Source of the DNA: an uncultured Bacteroidota bacterium
Lineage (GTDB): Bacteria > Bacteroidota > Bacteroidia > Flavobacteriales > Flavobacteriaceae
Assembly (NCBI GenBank): GCA_902598295.1
Contig: CACKBA010000003.1
Location: forward strand, 24,544 to 88,543
Length of the DNA stretch: 64,000 nucleotides
Reading direction: 5' to 3'
Part shown: positions 1 through 13,673 of the stretch, piece after piece
Layout: each line of letters opens with the position of its first letter
Numbering within the stretch: the first letter of the stretch is position 1
Translations under genes and position numbers: made by a program
Notes under the pieces: model-generated
Seen by the model: the letters and a program-made list of their open reading frames with translations, nothing else
What the model was told of the DNA's origin: nothing
The model's database searches: none

Positions 1-2385
1 GTTTTTTAACATATATTGCATTCGTTCTAAAGTTTTTCTTTCGCCACATAGGGAAATAAAAGCCTCTCTCTCAAGTTCAAGCAAATATTGCTCGGAAACT
101 TTTGTTGGTTGAGAGAGGTCTCCACCACATAACACATATGCAATCTTATTTGCAATTTTTTTATCATGATCTGAAATATAATCACCAGCCCTTAATGAAT
201 CAACACCGACATAAAGCATTCCTAGTGCTTGTTTACCCAATACTTTTATATCATTCCTCTCTATTGGCTTTGTGTATCCTGCTTCAAACAAATTTAAAGC
301 CTTTTGTTTTGCAATATAGATTTGATTTTTTTTGTTCATGACAGTTATATCTCTCCCCTTGATAAAGTAATCCAAATCATAACCCTCAAATCCTGATGTT
401 GCTGTTTTTCCCATTCCAATATTCATAAAGTATTCTTGTAGGATGTTTACTTCAACATCATTTTTTTTGAATTTATCGGATGCACGCAAAATCATTTCCT
501 TCATTCCTCCCCCGCCAGGAAGCAATCCGATTCCAGCTTCAACCAATCCTATGTAGGTTTCACTATAAGGTATTACTGCGTCACATTGTAGACATAATTC
601 ACATCCACCACCAAGAGTGTAACCGTGAGGTGCAGCAACAACTGGGATAGCAGAATATCTTAATCTCATCATGGTGTCTTGGAAAATTTTCATGACATGA
701 TTAAGTTCATCATATTCTTGCTCAATCGATAGCAAAAAAATCATACTTATATCAGCACCAGCTGAAAAGTGAGATCCCTCATTACCAATAACTAAACCTT
801 TGAAATCTTTTTCTGCAATTTCAACACCTTTTTTAAGTGAGCTGATTATATTTTGATTGATGACATTCATTTTGGAGGAAAACTCAAGATTTACGATGTC
901 ATCTCCTATGTCATATAGAGTGGCTTCTGAGTTTGACCAAACGATTTTATCTCCTAAAATATTTTTAAGTATTATGAAACCTTCTTGACCGGGTTTTATT
1001 TTATATTTTTTTGATGTTAGGTCATAATATTCAACAATACCTTCAGATTCTCTGTAGAATTCATTGTATCCATTTAATAACATGTCATCAATCCATTTAG
1101 CAGTTTCTAAACCATATACTTTCATCAATTCTTTCCCCTCATTTATACCGATATAATTCCATATTTCGAACGGACCATCTTTCCATCCAAATCCAGCTTT
1201 CATTGCTTCGTCAATACTAAAAATTGAATCAGAGATTTCTGGAATTCTGTTTTGAATGTAGTGAAACATCCTTGAGAAATTTTCTTTGTAAAAATTAGAT
1301 GCTTTATCATCACCGCTGACTAAAAATTTAAATTTTTCATTGGATGCCTTAATTTTTCTTGCTTTAGAAAGAATATCAAAATTGACTTTTTTTTGCTCAA
1401 CATATTCCATAGAATCAAAATCTAAGCGAAGTATTTTAGATTTCCCGCCTTTGTCTTTAATTTTTTTATAAAAACCCTTGCCTGTTTTGCTGCCTAAGGC
1501 ATTATTTTCAACCATTTTTTTTAAAAAATCAGGCTCTTTAAAAATCTCAATTGATTCATCATTTTTGCAAGAGTCATAAATTCCTTTTGATACGCTTATT
1601 AGAGTATCAAGTCCAACAACATCAGCAGTTCTGAAAGTCGCTGATTTTGGTCTACCAATAATACTTCCTGTAAGCTTATCAATTTCTTCAATAGTATAAT
1701 CTCCATTTTTAACCTGGTGAAACAAGCTTTGTATTCCAAAGGTCCCTATTCGATTTCCTATGAATGCAGGTGTATCTTTGGCCAAAATGGAGGTTTTGCC
1801 TAAATATTTTTCACCATATTTCAATAAAAAATTAAGAAGATCTTTATCGCAATTGGGGCTAGGAATAACCTCAAATAAATTAAGATAACGTGGTGGATTA
1901 AAAAAATGAGTAATCGCAAAATTTTTATTAAAATCATCGGATCTTCCTTTACTCATTAGTTTAATTGGTATTCCAGATGTATTTGAAGTTACTATAGTTC
2001 CAGGTGTTCTGTGCTTTTCAATCAAATCAAAAACTTGTTGTTTTATCTCTAGTTTTTCTACAACAACTTCTATAATCCAATCAGCATTCTTGATTTCATG
2101 AATATCATCATTAAAATTTCCAAGTTTTATTCGATTAAGAAAGTTTTTTGAATAAATCGGAGAGGGTTTTGATTTAATACATTTGTTAAACATTTCATTT
2201 ACAATCCTATTTTTAACAGCTTTTGAATCTAAACTTAATTTCTTTTGTTTTTCACTTTCGTTAAGTTCATTCGGGCAAATATCCAGTAACAGTACCTCAA
2301 TACCAATGTTTGCAAAATGGCACGCGATACCTGAACCCATGATACCTGAACCTAAAACTGCAACTTTAGAAATATTTTTTTTCAT
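1..2385 (-). CDS. fadN: 3-hydroxyacyl-CoA dehydrogenase / enoyl-CoA hydratase (FadN-like), C-terminus cut by window edge
   Basis: Bifunctional beta-oxidation enzyme that hydrates 2-enoyl-CoA and oxidises 3-hydroxyacyl-CoA with NAD+. The N-terminus carries the Rossmann motif VAVLGSGIMGSGIA (about residues 8-21), followed by the dehydrogenase C-terminal domains (NRIGTFG region) and then a crotonase-type domain (GNEGSHFSAGAD, HGYTLGGGCE). This dehydrogenase-first order is that of Bacillus FadN, not Escherichia FadB. All 795 codons to the window start are open, and the last visible residues, ERMQYMLKN, match the usual end of the family, so only a few residues are probably missing. The ATG overlaps the marR TGA by four bases (ATGA), so the two genes are probably translated together. 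A thiolase gene would be expected just beyond the window start. Confidence 0.93.
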   Translation of the reverse strand, partial: MKKNISKVAVLGSGIMGSGIACHFANIGIEVLLLDICPNELNESEKQKKLSLDSKAVKNRIVNEMFNKCIKSKPSPIYSKNFLNRIKLGNFNDDIHEIKNADWIIEVVVEKLEIKQQVFDLIEKHRTPGTIVTSNTSGIPIKLMSKGRSDDFNKNFAITHFFNPPRYLNLFEVIPSPNCDKDLLNFLLKYGEKYLGKTSILAKDTPAFIGNRIGTFGIQSLFHQVKNGDYTIEEIDKLTGSIIGRPKSATFRTADVVGLDTLISVSKGIYDSCKNDESIEIFKEPDFLKKMVENNALGSKTGKGFYKKIKDKGGKSKILRLDFDSMEYVEQKKVNFDILSKARKIKASNEKFKFLVSGDDKASNFYKENFSRMFHYIQNRIPEISDSIFSIDEAMKAGFGWKDGPFEIWNYIGINEGKELMKVYGLETAKWIDDMLLNGYNEFYRESEGIVEYYDLTSKKYKIKPGQEGFIILKNILGDKIVWSNSEATLYDIGDDIVNLEFSSKMNVINQNIISSLKKGVEIAEKDFKGLVIGNEGSHFSAGADISMIFLLSIEQEYDELNHVMKIFQDTMMRLRYSAIPVVAAPHGYTLGGGCELCLQCDAVIPYSETYIGLVEAGIGLLPGGGGMKEMILRASDKFKKNDVEVNILQEYFMNIGMGKTATSGFEGYDLDYFIKGRDITVMNKKNQIYIAKQKALNLFEAGYTKPIERNDIKVLGKQALGMLYVGVDSLRAGDYISDHDKKIANKIAYVLCGGDLSQPTKVSEQYLLELEREAFISLCGERKTLERMQYMLKN

Positions 2386-2816
2386 TTAAATATTTGACCG
2401 TCTTTAATTGTTTTGTTAATTGATTTTAAAACATCAAAAAAAATGTCTAGCTTTTTTTCCCCAATTTTATTTAAAACTATCTTATTAAATTTGTTACCAT
2501 TTTTTTTTGATATTGCCCTTAGTTCTTTTCCTTTATTTGTTAATAAAATAAAAACACCTCTTCTATCTTCCTCATTGGGAACCCTTTTTATTAAACCATT
2601 AATCTCCATTGACTTAAGGGTTCTGCCTAAGCTTGTGGATTCAAGTCCCATCTTTGGACCAAGAGATGTTGAGGGTGTTCCTTTATTTGGATTTAAATTC
2701 AATAATACAACAGCTTGGGCTAATGTACCACCTGCTTTAATTGCTTGTTCATTATGCATCTTATATATAGACCTCCAAGTATATCTAATATGATGCTCAA
2801 CAAATTTTTCTGACAT
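2382..2816 (-). CDS. MarR-family transcriptional regulator
   Basis: Winged helix-turn-helix regulator of 144 residues. The central part (MGLESTSLGRTLKSMEINGLI) is the recognition-helix region and VPNEEDRRGVFILLT is the beta-wing with the typical DxR motif. It is the first gene of an operon with the beta-oxidation gene downstream, which it overlaps by four bases, so it probably represses fatty-acid breakdown in response to an acyl-CoA or fatty acid (inference). A perfect 28-bp palindrome lies 16 bases upstream of its start codon and is the obvious candidate operator. AAAGGA directly abuts the ATG, too close to act as a Shine-Dalgarno site. Confidence 0.9.
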   Translation of the reverse strand: MSEKFVEHHIRYTWRSIYKMHNEQAIKAGGTLAQAVVLLNLNPNKGTPSTSLGPKMGLESTSLGRTLKSMEINGLIKRVPNEEDRRGVFILLTNKGKELRAISKKNGNKFNKIVLNKIGEKKLDIFFDVLKSINKTIKDGQIFK

Positions 2817-2832
2817 TCCTTTAATTTACAAA

Positions 2833-2860
2833 AAAAATACTATGCATGCATAGTATTTTT
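2833..2860. promoter_or_regulatory. Perfect 28-bp palindrome, probable MarR operator
   Basis: The sequence reads identically on both strands; the half-site is AAAAATACTATGCA and the centre is at 2846/2847. It sits between the end of purL and the start of marR. It is too symmetrical, with no loop and no one-sided T-tract, to be a simple terminator, and its position is that of an autoregulatory operator for a dimeric MarR protein. The assignment rests on position and symmetry; no binding data are available. Confidence 0.7.
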
Positions 2861-2894: not shown

Positions 2895-5800
2895 CTAAGT
2901 GGACTTTAACCATTCATAGGCGTTTTTGAAAGCCTGTATCCAAGGTGAAATATTGTGAGCGTTTTTTTTATCTGGATAAAAACCCCAGTTCCAAGGAAAT
3001 ATTGATCTTTCTAGATGAGGCATCATTGCAATATGTCGACCATCTTTATTTGCTAAAATTGCTGTATTGAAATCAGATCCGTTTGGATTGGATGGAAATG
3101 AGTTTTTTGCATATTTACCAATTATATTATAATCAGTTTCTTTACCAGGAAGTACAAATTTTCCCTCTCCATGGGCGGACCAAATACCCAGGTTTGTATT
3201 TTGAAAGTTCTTAAACATTATAGAATTATTTTCTTCAATTTTGACTGAAGTAAATACACACTCAAATTTACCTGAATCATTAAAGTCCATAAATGTTTTA
3301 TTTTTTGAGTCAACAGTTATTAAACCAAGTTCCATGAATAACTGACAACCATTACAAACCCCCAATGATAAATTATCATTTTTTGAGTAAAAATTTTTAA
3401 GACTTTTTTTTGCTTTTTCATTATATAAGAAAGTCCCTGCCCATCCCTTTGCAGATCCTAGAACATCGGAATTTGAAAAACCTCCAACTGCAACCAAAAA
3501 TTTTATATCACGGAGATTCTCTCTGCCTGACATTAAGTCTGTCATGTGTATATCAACAACATCAAAACCTGAAACATACATTGCATACGCCATCTCTCTT
3601 TCTGAGTTACTTCCTTTTTCTCTAAGTATTGCTGCCTTAATTTTATTATTATGGATTTTTTTAAATTCACCATCAAACCACTTTGGAAATTTAAATTTTA
3701 GCCCATTTGATTTTAAATTTGTGTATCTTTTTTTAGCATATTTTAATCCACTTTGTATGGAATCGAGTTTAAGTGATTTATCGAACCATTTTTTTCTGTA
3801 TTCATCAATATTGAGTGTATAATTTTTTTTATTTTTTTGAATTTCAATATTATCTGAACCAACAGTTTTTCCTAAACGTAAAAACTTTATGTTATTATTA
3901 ATCAAATCAGATTCAATTGTTTTTTCAGCTTCTACAACTATCGCATGATTTTCCGCAAATAAAATTTTAATTAAATCATCATTAAATTCATCTAAAAATA
4001 TTTCTAAACCAATTCCACGTGAGACAAAAGACATCTCAAGAATTGTTGTTATTAGTCCTCCAGAACTCACATCATGACCCGAATATATTTTTCCTTCATT
4101 AATTAGTAGTTGTATGGAATTAAATACCTTTTTAAAATATTTAGCATTTAAGATGTCATTTGATATATGACCTACTTTATTGTTTGATTGCATTAATGCA
4201 GATCCGCCCAAATTTAAGTCACATGATGACATATCAATGTAATATAAATTTGAGTTTAATTTTTTAAAAAACGGTTCCACACACTTACTTACATCACTAA
4301 CCTCACCAACTGCAGAAATTATGACCGTACCAGGTGAAAGAACTTCATCATTTTTGTATTTCTGTTTCATGGACATTGAGTCTTTGCCCGTAGGAACATT
4401 AATACCAAGTTCAATGCAAAAATCAGAACAAGCTTTAACAGCTGAATAAAGCCTGTCATTTTCGCCAACATTGTTTGCTGGCCACATCCAATTAGCAGAT
4501 AGAGATACAGATTTAAGTCCATTTTTTAATGGTGCCCAAATAATATTTGTCAATGCTTCACCTACTGAATTTCTTGAGCCTGTTGCAGGATTGATTAAAG
4601 CTGTTGTTGGACTATGTCCCACTGACGTTGCGACACCGTATTTTGATTCGTAATCTAAAGCCATTACTCCACAATTATTGAGAGGAAGTTGGTATGGACC
4701 TGTACATTGCTGGAGTGCAACTTTTCCTGTTACACATCTATCAACTTTATTTGTTAACCAATCTTTACATGAGATAGATTCTAATTTAAAAATTTCATCC
4801 AAATAGTTTTTGAAGTTATCTGGTTTAAATTCGTGGTCAGTAAAAACTATTTTTTCAGAATTATCTTTCAATATGGTTTGAGGTGAATTTCCAAAAAAAT
4901 CATCAATTGTTAAGTCAATAGTGTATTCATCTTTATTCCATGATTTGACTTTAAATTTTTTATCTTCAGTGACTACTCCCACAATATAGTAAGGAGCATT
5001 TTCTCTCAAGCATATTTGCTTCAGTTTACTTAGATATTTTTTTTCAATTACGATGCCCATTCTTTCTTGAGATTCATTGCCAATTATTTCCTTTTCGGAT
5101 AGTGTTTTATCTCCAATTGGCAACTTATTTATGTCAATTGTACCACCGACATTTTCTACAAGTTCAGAAAGACAATTGAGATGCCCTCCAGCACCATGAT
5201 CATGAATAGATTTGATGAAATTTTCCCCAGACTCAAGTATTGATCTAATTACATTGAAAACTCTTTTCTGCATCTCTGGATTTGATCTCTGTACTGCATT
5301 AAGCTCTATACCAGAGCTATACTCACCTGTATTTGTAGAAGAAACAGACGCACCACCCATCCCAATTCTATAATTATCTCCCCCCAGCACAACTATTAAA
5401 TCCCCTTTCGATAAATTTGATTTAAATGAATATTCTTTTTTCCCATAACCAATTCCACCTGCCAGCATAATAACTTTATCATATCCCCATGATTTTCCAT
5501 TTTCTTGGTGTTCAAATGTAAATAGCGACCCTGCAATTAGAGGTTGTCCGAACTTATTGCCAAAATCTGATGCACCATTTGATGCTTTAACTAGTATCTC
5601 CGCAGGTTTTTGATACAACCATTCGCGTTTTTTAAAACCAAACTTTGAATCGTCAAACCTGGGGTAGGGTGTCATATAAACAGCCGTACCTGCAAGGGGA
5701 ATTGAACCCTGACCTCCAGCCATTCTATCTCTAATCTCTCCTCCTGAACCAGTAGCTGCTCCACTGAAAGGTTCAACTGTAGTCGGAAAATTGTGAGTTT

Positions 5801-6536
5801 CTGCCTTTATAGAAATTATGGATTTGAAGTTAGACAACTTGTATTCAGACTGAGTTTCAGCTTTTATGGGTGCAAATTGTTTAATGTTAGGTCCTTCAAT
5901 AAACGCCACATTATCCTTGTAGGCAGAGACCACACTATTCTTATTAAGTTTTGTTGTTTTCTTAATTAGATCAAAAAGTGAGTCTTTTCTTTCAATATCA
6001 TCAATAATAAATCTACCGTTGAATATTTTGTGTCTACAATGCTCAGAGTTGACTTGAGAAAAACCAAACACTTCAGAATCTGTTAGTTTTCTGCCTATTT
6101 TTTTTGATAATGATTCAAGGTAAGTTATTTCATCATCACTTAACGCGAGTCCTTCACTCAAATTATATTGATGTATGTTGTCAATGTGTTGTCTTTTTTC
6201 AGGATTTCGACTTATTTTAAACAATTCCTGATCCAACTTCACATATTTTTCTGAAATCATGTAATCAAATACATCAGATTCACCAATGGGATTAAATAAT
6301 TCAATCCTATCAATAAATTCAATACCCATATTTTTAGTTATTTCAACAGCGTTTGTTGACCAGGGGGTAACCATTGCTTTTCGTGGACCAATAAAAGTAG
6401 ATTCAATGATTTTTGTTTTTAGAAATTTACTATTTCCAAACAACCATGCTAATTTTCTTATATCATTTTGGGAAATGGGATTCTTACTATCAACAGCATA
6501 AATTTGTTTATTGTTGTTTTGAAAGAATGATATCAT
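2895..6536 (-). CDS. purL: Phosphoribosylformylglycinamidine synthase (large single-chain type)
   Basis: Fourth step of purine synthesis: converts FGAR, glutamine and ATP to FGAM in the cytoplasm. At 1213 residues this is the long form in which the glutaminase is fused to the synthetase. The N-terminal and AIRS-like synthetase domains show EHCRHKIFNG, KAETHNFPTTVEPFSGAATG and GKDSMSMK. The C-terminal class I glutaminase has nucleophile Cys1061 (GVCNGCQ) and the His1174/Glu1176 pair (PHLERS). Transcribed alone: 90 bases separate it from the upstream gene and 78 from marR. A TACTTTTG box (6548-6555, minus strand) lies 11 bases before the ATG and is a candidate -7 element. Confidence 0.97.
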   Translation of the reverse strand: MISFFQNNNKQIYAVDSKNPISQNDIRKLAWLFGNSKFLKTKIIESTFIGPRKAMVTPWSTNAVEITKNMGIEFIDRIELFNPIGESDVFDYMISEKYVKLDQELFKISRNPEKRQHIDNIHQYNLSEGLALSDDEITYLESLSKKIGRKLTDSEVFGFSQVNSEHCRHKIFNGRFIIDDIERKDSLFDLIKKTTKLNKNSVVSAYKDNVAFIEGPNIKQFAPIKAETQSEYKLSNFKSIISIKAETHNFPTTVEPFSGAATGSGGEIRDRMAGGQGSIPLAGTAVYMTPYPRFDDSKFGFKKREWLYQKPAEILVKASNGASDFGNKFGQPLIAGSLFTFEHQENGKSWGYDKVIMLAGGIGYGKKEYSFKSNLSKGDLIVVLGGDNYRIGMGGASVSSTNTGEYSSGIELNAVQRSNPEMQKRVFNVIRSILESGENFIKSIHDHGAGGHLNCLSELVENVGGTIDINKLPIGDKTLSEKEIIGNESQERMGIVIEKKYLSKLKQICLRENAPYYIVGVVTEDKKFKVKSWNKDEYTIDLTIDDFFGNSPQTILKDNSEKIVFTDHEFKPDNFKNYLDEIFKLESISCKDWLTNKVDRCVTGKVALQQCTGPYQLPLNNCGVMALDYESKYGVATSVGHSPTTALINPATGSRNSVGEALTNIIWAPLKNGLKSVSLSANWMWPANNVGENDRLYSAVKACSDFCIELGINVPTGKDSMSMKQKYKNDEVLSPGTVIISAVGEVSDVSKCVEPFFKKLNSNLYYIDMSSCDLNLGGSALMQSNNKVGHISNDILNAKYFKKVFNSIQLLINEGKIYSGHDVSSGGLITTILEMSFVSRGIGLEIFLDEFNDDLIKILFAENHAIVVEAEKTIESDLINNNIKFLRLGKTVGSDNIEIQKNKKNYTLNIDEYRKKWFDKSLKLDSIQSGLKYAKKRYTNLKSNGLKFKFPKWFDGEFKKIHNNKIKAAILREKGSNSEREMAYAMYVSGFDVVDIHMTDLMSGRENLRDIKFLVAVGGFSNSDVLGSAKGWAGTFLYNEKAKKSLKNFYSKNDNLSLGVCNGCQLFMELGLITVDSKNKTFMDFNDSGKFECVFTSVKIEENNSIMFKNFQNTNLGIWSAHGEGKFVLPGKETDYNIIGKYAKNSFPSNPNGSDFNTAILANKDGRHIAMMPHLERSIFPWNWGFYPDKKNAHNISPWIQAFKNAYEWLKST

Positions 6537-13135: not shown

Positions 13136-13166
13136 ATTGCATAAATTAAAAAAAAACTTATTTTTG
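13136..13166 (+). promoter_or_regulatory. Promoter of rpmE2
   Basis: ATTG at 13136-13139 (one mismatch to the -33 box TTTG), 19 bases, then TATTTTTG at 13159-13166, a perfect -7 box TAnnTTTG. The L31 ATG follows 15 bases later, which gives a very short leader. Confidence 0.7.
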
Positions 13167-13181
13167 CTCACTCAATTAAAA

Positions 13182-13673
13182 ATGAAAAAAGGTATACATC
13201 CAGAAAATTATAGACTTGTTGCTTTTAAAGATATGTCCAACAACGATGTTTTTATCACCAAATCAGCTGTTGAAACCAAAGATACAATAAATCACGAGGG
13301 TGTAGATTATCCATTAGTGAAGTTAGAAATTTCACGAACATCTCATCCATACTATACAGGTAAAACAAAACTTGTTGACACTGCCGGTAGAATAGATAAG
13401 TTTAAAAACAGATATGCTGCTTTGTCATTGAAAAAAAACGAGGGTTCAAAACCGTCTGAAGCCACACCTGCTAACGAACCTGTTGCTGAAACCACACCTG
13501 CTAACGAACCTGTTGCTGAAGCCACACCTGCTGAAGAGCCTGTTGCTAAAGAGGTACCTGCCGAAGAGCCTGTTGCTGAAGAGGCACCTGCTGAAGAGCC
13601 TGTTGCTGAAGAGGCACCTGCTGAGAATCCTGAGGATTCAGATGAAAATACAGACTCTGAGTCCGTTAAGTAA
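13182..13673 (+). CDS. rpmE2: Ribosomal protein L31 type B with a long acidic repeat tail
   Basis: Residues 1-85 are a complete type B L31 ([18 protein letters not shown], then [12 protein letters not shown] and [14 protein letters not shown]) with no cysteines, the zinc-independent form. The start at 13182 matches the family; an in-frame TTG at 13137 would add 15 unrelated residues and lies inside the promoter. The remaining ~75 residues are unusual: five and a half copies of a ten-residue unit of type [10 protein letters not shown] (residues 93-152), then a Ser/Asp/Glu-rich end. Known L31 type B proteins are about 80-95 residues. The tail is strongly acidic and probably disordered. Confidence 0.93.
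13458..13637 (+). repeat. 30-bp tandem repeat coding for the L31 tail
   Basis: Six consecutive 30-base units, the last degenerate, encode [50 protein letters not shown] and [10 protein letters not shown]. The first two units are nearly identical at the base level, as are the fourth and fifth, so the array probably grew by recent slippage or unequal exchange and may vary in number between strains. Confidence 0.9.

Follow-up and report, generated by a model that had tools for sequence, protein, structure and literature searches.

The window, the whole 64,000-nucleotide stretch of DNA that was analyzed, begins with a beta-oxidation operon read from the minus strand. The marR gene encodes a predicted winged-helix regulator, and its stop codon is overlapped by 4 bp by the start of a fadN-like gene that runs off the window edge (Table 1). 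The complete fadN-like gene in the genome encodes 801 residues (locus L008) and is followed, almost without gaps, by thiolase, acyl-CoA dehydrogenase and M28-type peptidase genes. The marR product contains a MarR winged helix-turn-helix domain (40 bits against a Pfam cut-off of 24.6) and reaches no NCBIfam equivalog cut-off. The MarR profile matches 108 PDB sequences; MarR-family chains rank at the top, and the CouR and HcaR chains are among the matches. MarR matches were found in 47 of 60 relatives, and recognition-helix residues S62, L63 and R65 are invariant across 25 orthologues. A separate open reading frame at 13137-13673 resembles, by eye, type B ribosomal protein L31 with a long, repetitive C-terminal tail rich in A, E, P and V and acidic in character.

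Table 1. Features of the marR-fadN locus (window coordinates)
Feature	Position	Strand	Remarks
fadN/fadB-like bifunctional 3-hydroxyacyl-CoA dehydrogenase and enoyl-CoA hydratase	1..2385	-	NCBIfam Staph_FadB, E = 3.6e-168
marR, 144-residue MarR-family winged-helix regulator	2382..2816	-	Pfam MarR, E = 3.6e-10; predicted binder of the palindrome and autorepressor of its operon
Degenerate Bacteroidota -7 box TAAATTAA	2821..2828	-	9 bp after the core towards marR, matching the conserved box position
Perfect palindrome AAAAATACTATGCATGCATAGTATTTTT	2833..2860	.	Predicted MarR operator with A/T flanks
Conserved operator core, 18 bp, TACTATGCATGCATAGTA (consensus TAYTATGCNNGCATARTA)	2838..2855	.	Kept before marR orthologues across Flavobacteriales
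purL	2895..6536	-	Upstream neighbor on the marR strand, outside the system; bounds the intergenic region

The intergenic region between purL and marR contains a perfect 28-bp palindrome that ends exactly 16 bases from the marR ATG, in agreement with the preliminary description. It is the longest perfect palindrome of the window and the only match to its sequence there even when 3 mismatches are allowed. The preliminary description had also placed the symmetry far beyond chance, which overstates the case somewhat. When the window (30% G+C) was shuffled 200 times with dinucleotide composition preserved, one shuffle contained a perfect palindrome of equal length, so the symmetry by itself has only a moderately low probability in this DNA. 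That the palindrome is a real site is virtually certain from its conservation across relatives.

An exact copy of the core lies before the orthologous marR in 72 of the 79 named Flavobacteriaceae loci with enough upstream DNA, and all 79 carry it with no more than 2 mismatches. The best core match in equally long coding control stretches had 5-8 mismatches. Among relatives within the order the core, TAYTATGCRYGCATARTA, lies mostly 20-60 bp before marR over a range of 90% down to 37% protein identity, and some edge orthologues (L099, L102, L103) have only degenerate matches. Within the core, variation is almost confined to positions 3 and 16, with symmetric C/T and G/A alternatives, and to a freer central pair. 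Outside the core there is a strong T-run towards marR, and the outer A/T tract on the far side is weakly conserved. The conserved part is thus the 18-bp core, and the 28-bp extent in the window consists of this core plus A/T flanks; the near-side tract is, on the sequence evidence, part of the promoter spacer. The proposal that the palindrome is a MarR operator kept before marR-fadN operons is thus supported by sequence comparison, with a conserved unit of 18 rather than 28 bp. One genus subgroup (L014-L026) has a second inverted repeat with ATGCAT-like arms (TATGCATTTATAAATGCATA in L016), approximately 67-90 bp before marR and upstream of the operator.

The position of the core relative to the promoter was examined at 120 marR-associated sites. 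The Bacteroidota -7 box has the consensus TAnnTTTG, and either TAnnTTTG or TAnnTTTA occurs 8-9 bp after the core in 85 of the 120. TAnnTTT[GA] is found anywhere within 20 nt after the core in 103 of them, compared to a background of 3.6% per 20-nt stretch. The -7 box of Flavobacterium psychrophilum spans -12 to -5 (PMC9723704), and with a spacing of 8-9 bp the core would therefore cover about -38 to -21 and overlap the -33 region. The location of the degenerate box TAAATTAA would place the transcription start of the window operon at or next to the marR ATG. In the window (2816-2828) and several marine lineages the core is 19-22 bp before the ATG, and the -7 box spacing suggests leaderless marR-fad mRNAs; in many relatives the core is about 30-38 bp from the ATG, and leaders of roughly 12-16 nt are expected.

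The distribution of the exact core follows that of the regulator. The core occurs in 139 of 248 Flavobacteriales genomes and a reversed control pattern in none of the 248. Among the 166 genomes with a strong MarR match (E below 1e-40; tallied by hand from two tables), 137 carry it and 29 do not, compared to 2 carriers among the 82 genomes without a strong match (Fisher p of about 2e-37, with genomes counted as independent despite their kinship). One of these two exceptions, G075, is a 370-contig assembly whose fadN match is cut short at the end that should adjoin marR. The other, G046, is a 99%-complete assembly of 2 contigs in which marR and fadN were not found and two exact sites were, at C1:212285 (L040), before a conserved esterase gene, and C2:336865 (L069). 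In a sample of 197 genomes of the class, 25 have exact sites and none has the control pattern. Twenty exact sites were retrieved from outside the order: about 12-13 precede marR-fadN (L229, L230, L232, L235-L239, L241, L243 and others; MarR identity 33-47%), and acyl-CoA dehydrogenase or thiolase genes follow four (L240, L245-L247). The exact core was found in 0 of 75 genomes of other classes in a phylum-level sample, where the control pattern occurred in one. Comparison across these genomes strongly supports a pairing of this MarR with the 18-bp core. The site also occurs in many non-marine Flavobacterium and in several orders of Bacteroidia, and the earlier restriction to marine Flavobacteriia does not hold.

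A second exact-consensus site in the window's own genome lies between etfB and a divergent E1-beta dehydrogenase gene (pdhB), and it was found again in nearly all members of the genus and widely in the family. In Flavobacterium this site is mostly 50-90 bp from etfB versus about 200-500 bp from the E1-beta gene, and the shorter distance makes etfBA the likely target. Exact sites retrieved by the motif (n = 101 distinct) include 47 before etfB and 29 before marR, and most of the others precede fadD, esterase, EMO-like, fadH, DECR, FabH, fadE and fadA genes. Because the retrieval skipped most marR sites, the counts do not give the share of each gene among all sites. A gene of one of the kinds named in this and the next paragraph follows 88 of the 101, acyl-CoA dehydrogenase genes follow 2 more, and about 11 lie before genes for TonB receptors and for secreted or other proteins that show no obvious connection to fatty acids; a few sites of the last kind are expected by chance.

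Individual sites are located before acyl-CoA synthetase genes (fadD; L208, L218, and L227, where fadD is divergent from marR), an old-yellow-type 2,4-dienoyl-CoA reductase gene (fadH-type; L191), an SDR-type dienoyl-CoA reductase gene (DECR; L216) and esterase genes (L040, L224, L225). A site with 3 mismatches precedes a FadL gene (L072; Pfam Toluene_X, E = 1.4e-63). At L226, L055 and L059 the site is followed by an operon for a 4Fe-4S dicluster membrane protein and a CCG-like protein, a putative ETF:quinone (menaquinone) oxidoreductase that resembles a split EtfD/FadF. Genes named here with no Pfam match given, among them the two dienoyl-CoA reductases, fadD and the CCG-like protein, were named by inspecting their sequences for general resemblance, and we presume the likeness to EtfD/FadF from the 4Fe-4S domains, the gene neighbors and general resemblance. 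Sites thus precede both marR itself and genes of beta-oxidation, as in a repressor of fatty acid degradation. The suggestion that MarR controls the linked fadN gene is supported by these comparisons, and the predicted regulon is much wider.

Core-like sites were seen before the starts of TonB-dependent-receptor-like genes, exact at L053, L192 and L222 and with 2 mismatches to the window sequence at L080; the gene at L053 is the one of the four that was checked against Pfam. These sites may mark lipid-uptake receptors. Sites before FabH-like ketoacyl synthase genes (exact at L195; 3 mismatches to the window sequence at L089 and L090) hint at a link between fatty acid breakdown and synthesis. 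A core with 3 mismatches precedes a Rieske protein and photolyase gene pair in the window's genome (G000 C25:2439-2456; L004, L007), is identical in two close relatives, G007 (L081) and G021 (L075), and is possibly an extra regulon member or a site of another regulator. The 3-mismatch site at C2:81777 in the same genome is inside a sulfatase-like gene and was taken as chance.

MarR proteins bind as dimers to palindromes, usually in their own promoters, and mostly repress; several catabolic members are released from DNA by CoA thioesters (PMC5487221). The marR gene likewise has a palindromic site in its own promoter, and, judged by the comparisons above, the repressor that the adjoining marR encodes very probably docks at the palindrome. 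The whole arrangement is very likely that of an autoregulating MarR repressor of a beta-oxidation regulon, with the core as operator and acyl-CoA as the probable releaser. A MarR homodimer would bind the 18-bp core, cover the -33 region of the marR-fadN-fadA-fadE promoter and block RNA polymerase, thereby repressing its own operon. The same dimer would repress etfBA from the second site, which the window's own genome also has, and its further targets in relatives would be fadD, the dienoyl-CoA reductases, fadL, other acyl-CoA dehydrogenases, thiolase, the putative ETF:menaquinone oxidoreductase operon and the esterases. Once fatty acids have been imported and activated, acyl-CoA would most likely bind the dimer and the DNA would be released. 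We infer physical binding, repression rather than activation, and an acyl-CoA ligand; the position of the core over the -33 region fits repression, and the beta-oxidation gene set fits acyl-CoA induction. Conservation of the operator, its placement in the promoter, its pairing with MarR and the beta-oxidation make-up of the regulon are established by comparing the genomes.

A chance palindrome in A/T-rich intergenic DNA would be compatible with the shuffling result, but conservation across the order and the class refutes this reading and leaves it a negligible probability. A role of the palindrome as transcription terminator or RNA hairpin of purL, with a symmetry that serves RNA folding, is very improbable. 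The palindrome comes directly after purL, and its minus-strand RNA has a folding energy of -10.8 kcal/mol (z = -3.65) and is followed by a T-run; however, a terminator scan demanding stems of at least 3 G-C pairs found none, conservation covers the palindrome sequence itself beyond pairing, and the same core is found next to genes other than purL. The core also occurs between divergent genes (etfB/pdhB, marR/fadD), a setting that requires no terminator, and this disfavors the explanation. An intrinsic terminator would have a G+C-rich stem with a T-run and occur at the ends of transcription units only, a description that the core in divergent promoters does not fit.

The binder or its mode of action could also differ from the one proposed. 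A different transcription factor might bind the site and control the fatty acid genes, with marR as merely one of its targets. A motif alone cannot name its binder, and the sites of G046 persist in a genome without marR, although these may be relics, sites of another binder or the result of a gap in the assembly. The near-strict co-occurrence of the site with this MarR over 248 genomes, the fixed spacing of the site in the MarR's own promoter and the nearly invariant recognition helix make a different factor improbable. There is a small but real chance that MarR binds the site and activates the beta-oxidation genes, or senses a signal other than acyl-CoA such as a free fatty acid, acyl-ACP or the redox state. 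Activators exist in the MarR family, and FabT has acyl-ACP as its co-repressor (PMC5487221, PMC13046290). The core, however, overlies the -33 region and is separated from the -7 box by 8-9 bp, which is the position of a repressor, and several catabolic MarR proteins have known CoA-thioester ligands (PMC5487221).

The repressor reading places the window's MarR among several known regulators. FabT, a MarR-family protein of Lactobacillales, is similarly encoded with the fatty acid operon under its control (PMC13046290). FabT governs synthesis with acyl-ACP as co-repressor, whereas here the genes are for breakdown and induction is expected. The marR product was rejected as a FabT equivalog: its score against NCBIfam NF050133 (E = 2.9e-5, 24.4 bits) is far below the 200-bit cut-off, and the gene is in a beta-oxidation operon, not a fab synthesis operon. 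CouR, HcaR and FerC are, like the proposed MarR, repressors of catabolic operons from the same family with CoA thioesters reported as inducers (PMC5487221), but they control hydroxycinnamate (aromatic acid) degradation, have other operator sequences and are distant in sequence. The Fe-S/CCG-like operon (L226, L055, L059) looks like EtfD/FadF split into separate genes. Fatty acid degradation genes are repressed until acyl-CoA accumulates by FadR (GntR family) in Escherichia coli, FadR (TetR family) in Bacillus and PsrA (TetR family) in Pseudomonas. FadR and PsrA would do the same job as the MarR described here with unrelated protein families and operator sequences. A TetR-family FadR is described as a fatty acid degradation repressor in Sulfolobus (PMC6449355), and the mycobacterial membrane oxidoreductase EtfD/EMO (Rv0338c) is described as having a role in beta-oxidation (PMC8593149).

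Fish mucus and plasma strongly raise the expression of the beta-oxidation genes of F. psychrophilum, and the main text of that study names no regulator for them (PMC9723704). No description of the motif or its regulon was found in a search of open-access papers, and these papers yielded no regulator of fatty acid breakdown in Flavobacteriia or the wider Bacteroidia. It is somewhat more probable than not that this MarR is a general master repressor of fatty acid breakdown across much of the class Bacteroidia, acting through one 18-bp operator. If so, it would be a counterpart of FadR built on an unrelated protein, and uptake (FadL, esterases), activation (FadD), the beta-oxidation cycle, the auxiliary dienoyl-CoA reductases and electron transfer from ETF to quinone would be under its control. 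The operator string picks out the regulon with almost no background. It thereby opens the control of lipid use in the class to direct testing and helps to annotate uncharacterized genes such as the split Fe-S oxidoreductase operon that likely links ETF to menaquinone. Flavobacteriia and other Bacteroidia degrade much of the ocean's organic matter, and fish pathogens are among their members. The finding predicts an on/off switch for the use of fat across a class in which some fish pathogens adjust their beta-oxidation genes to host mucus.
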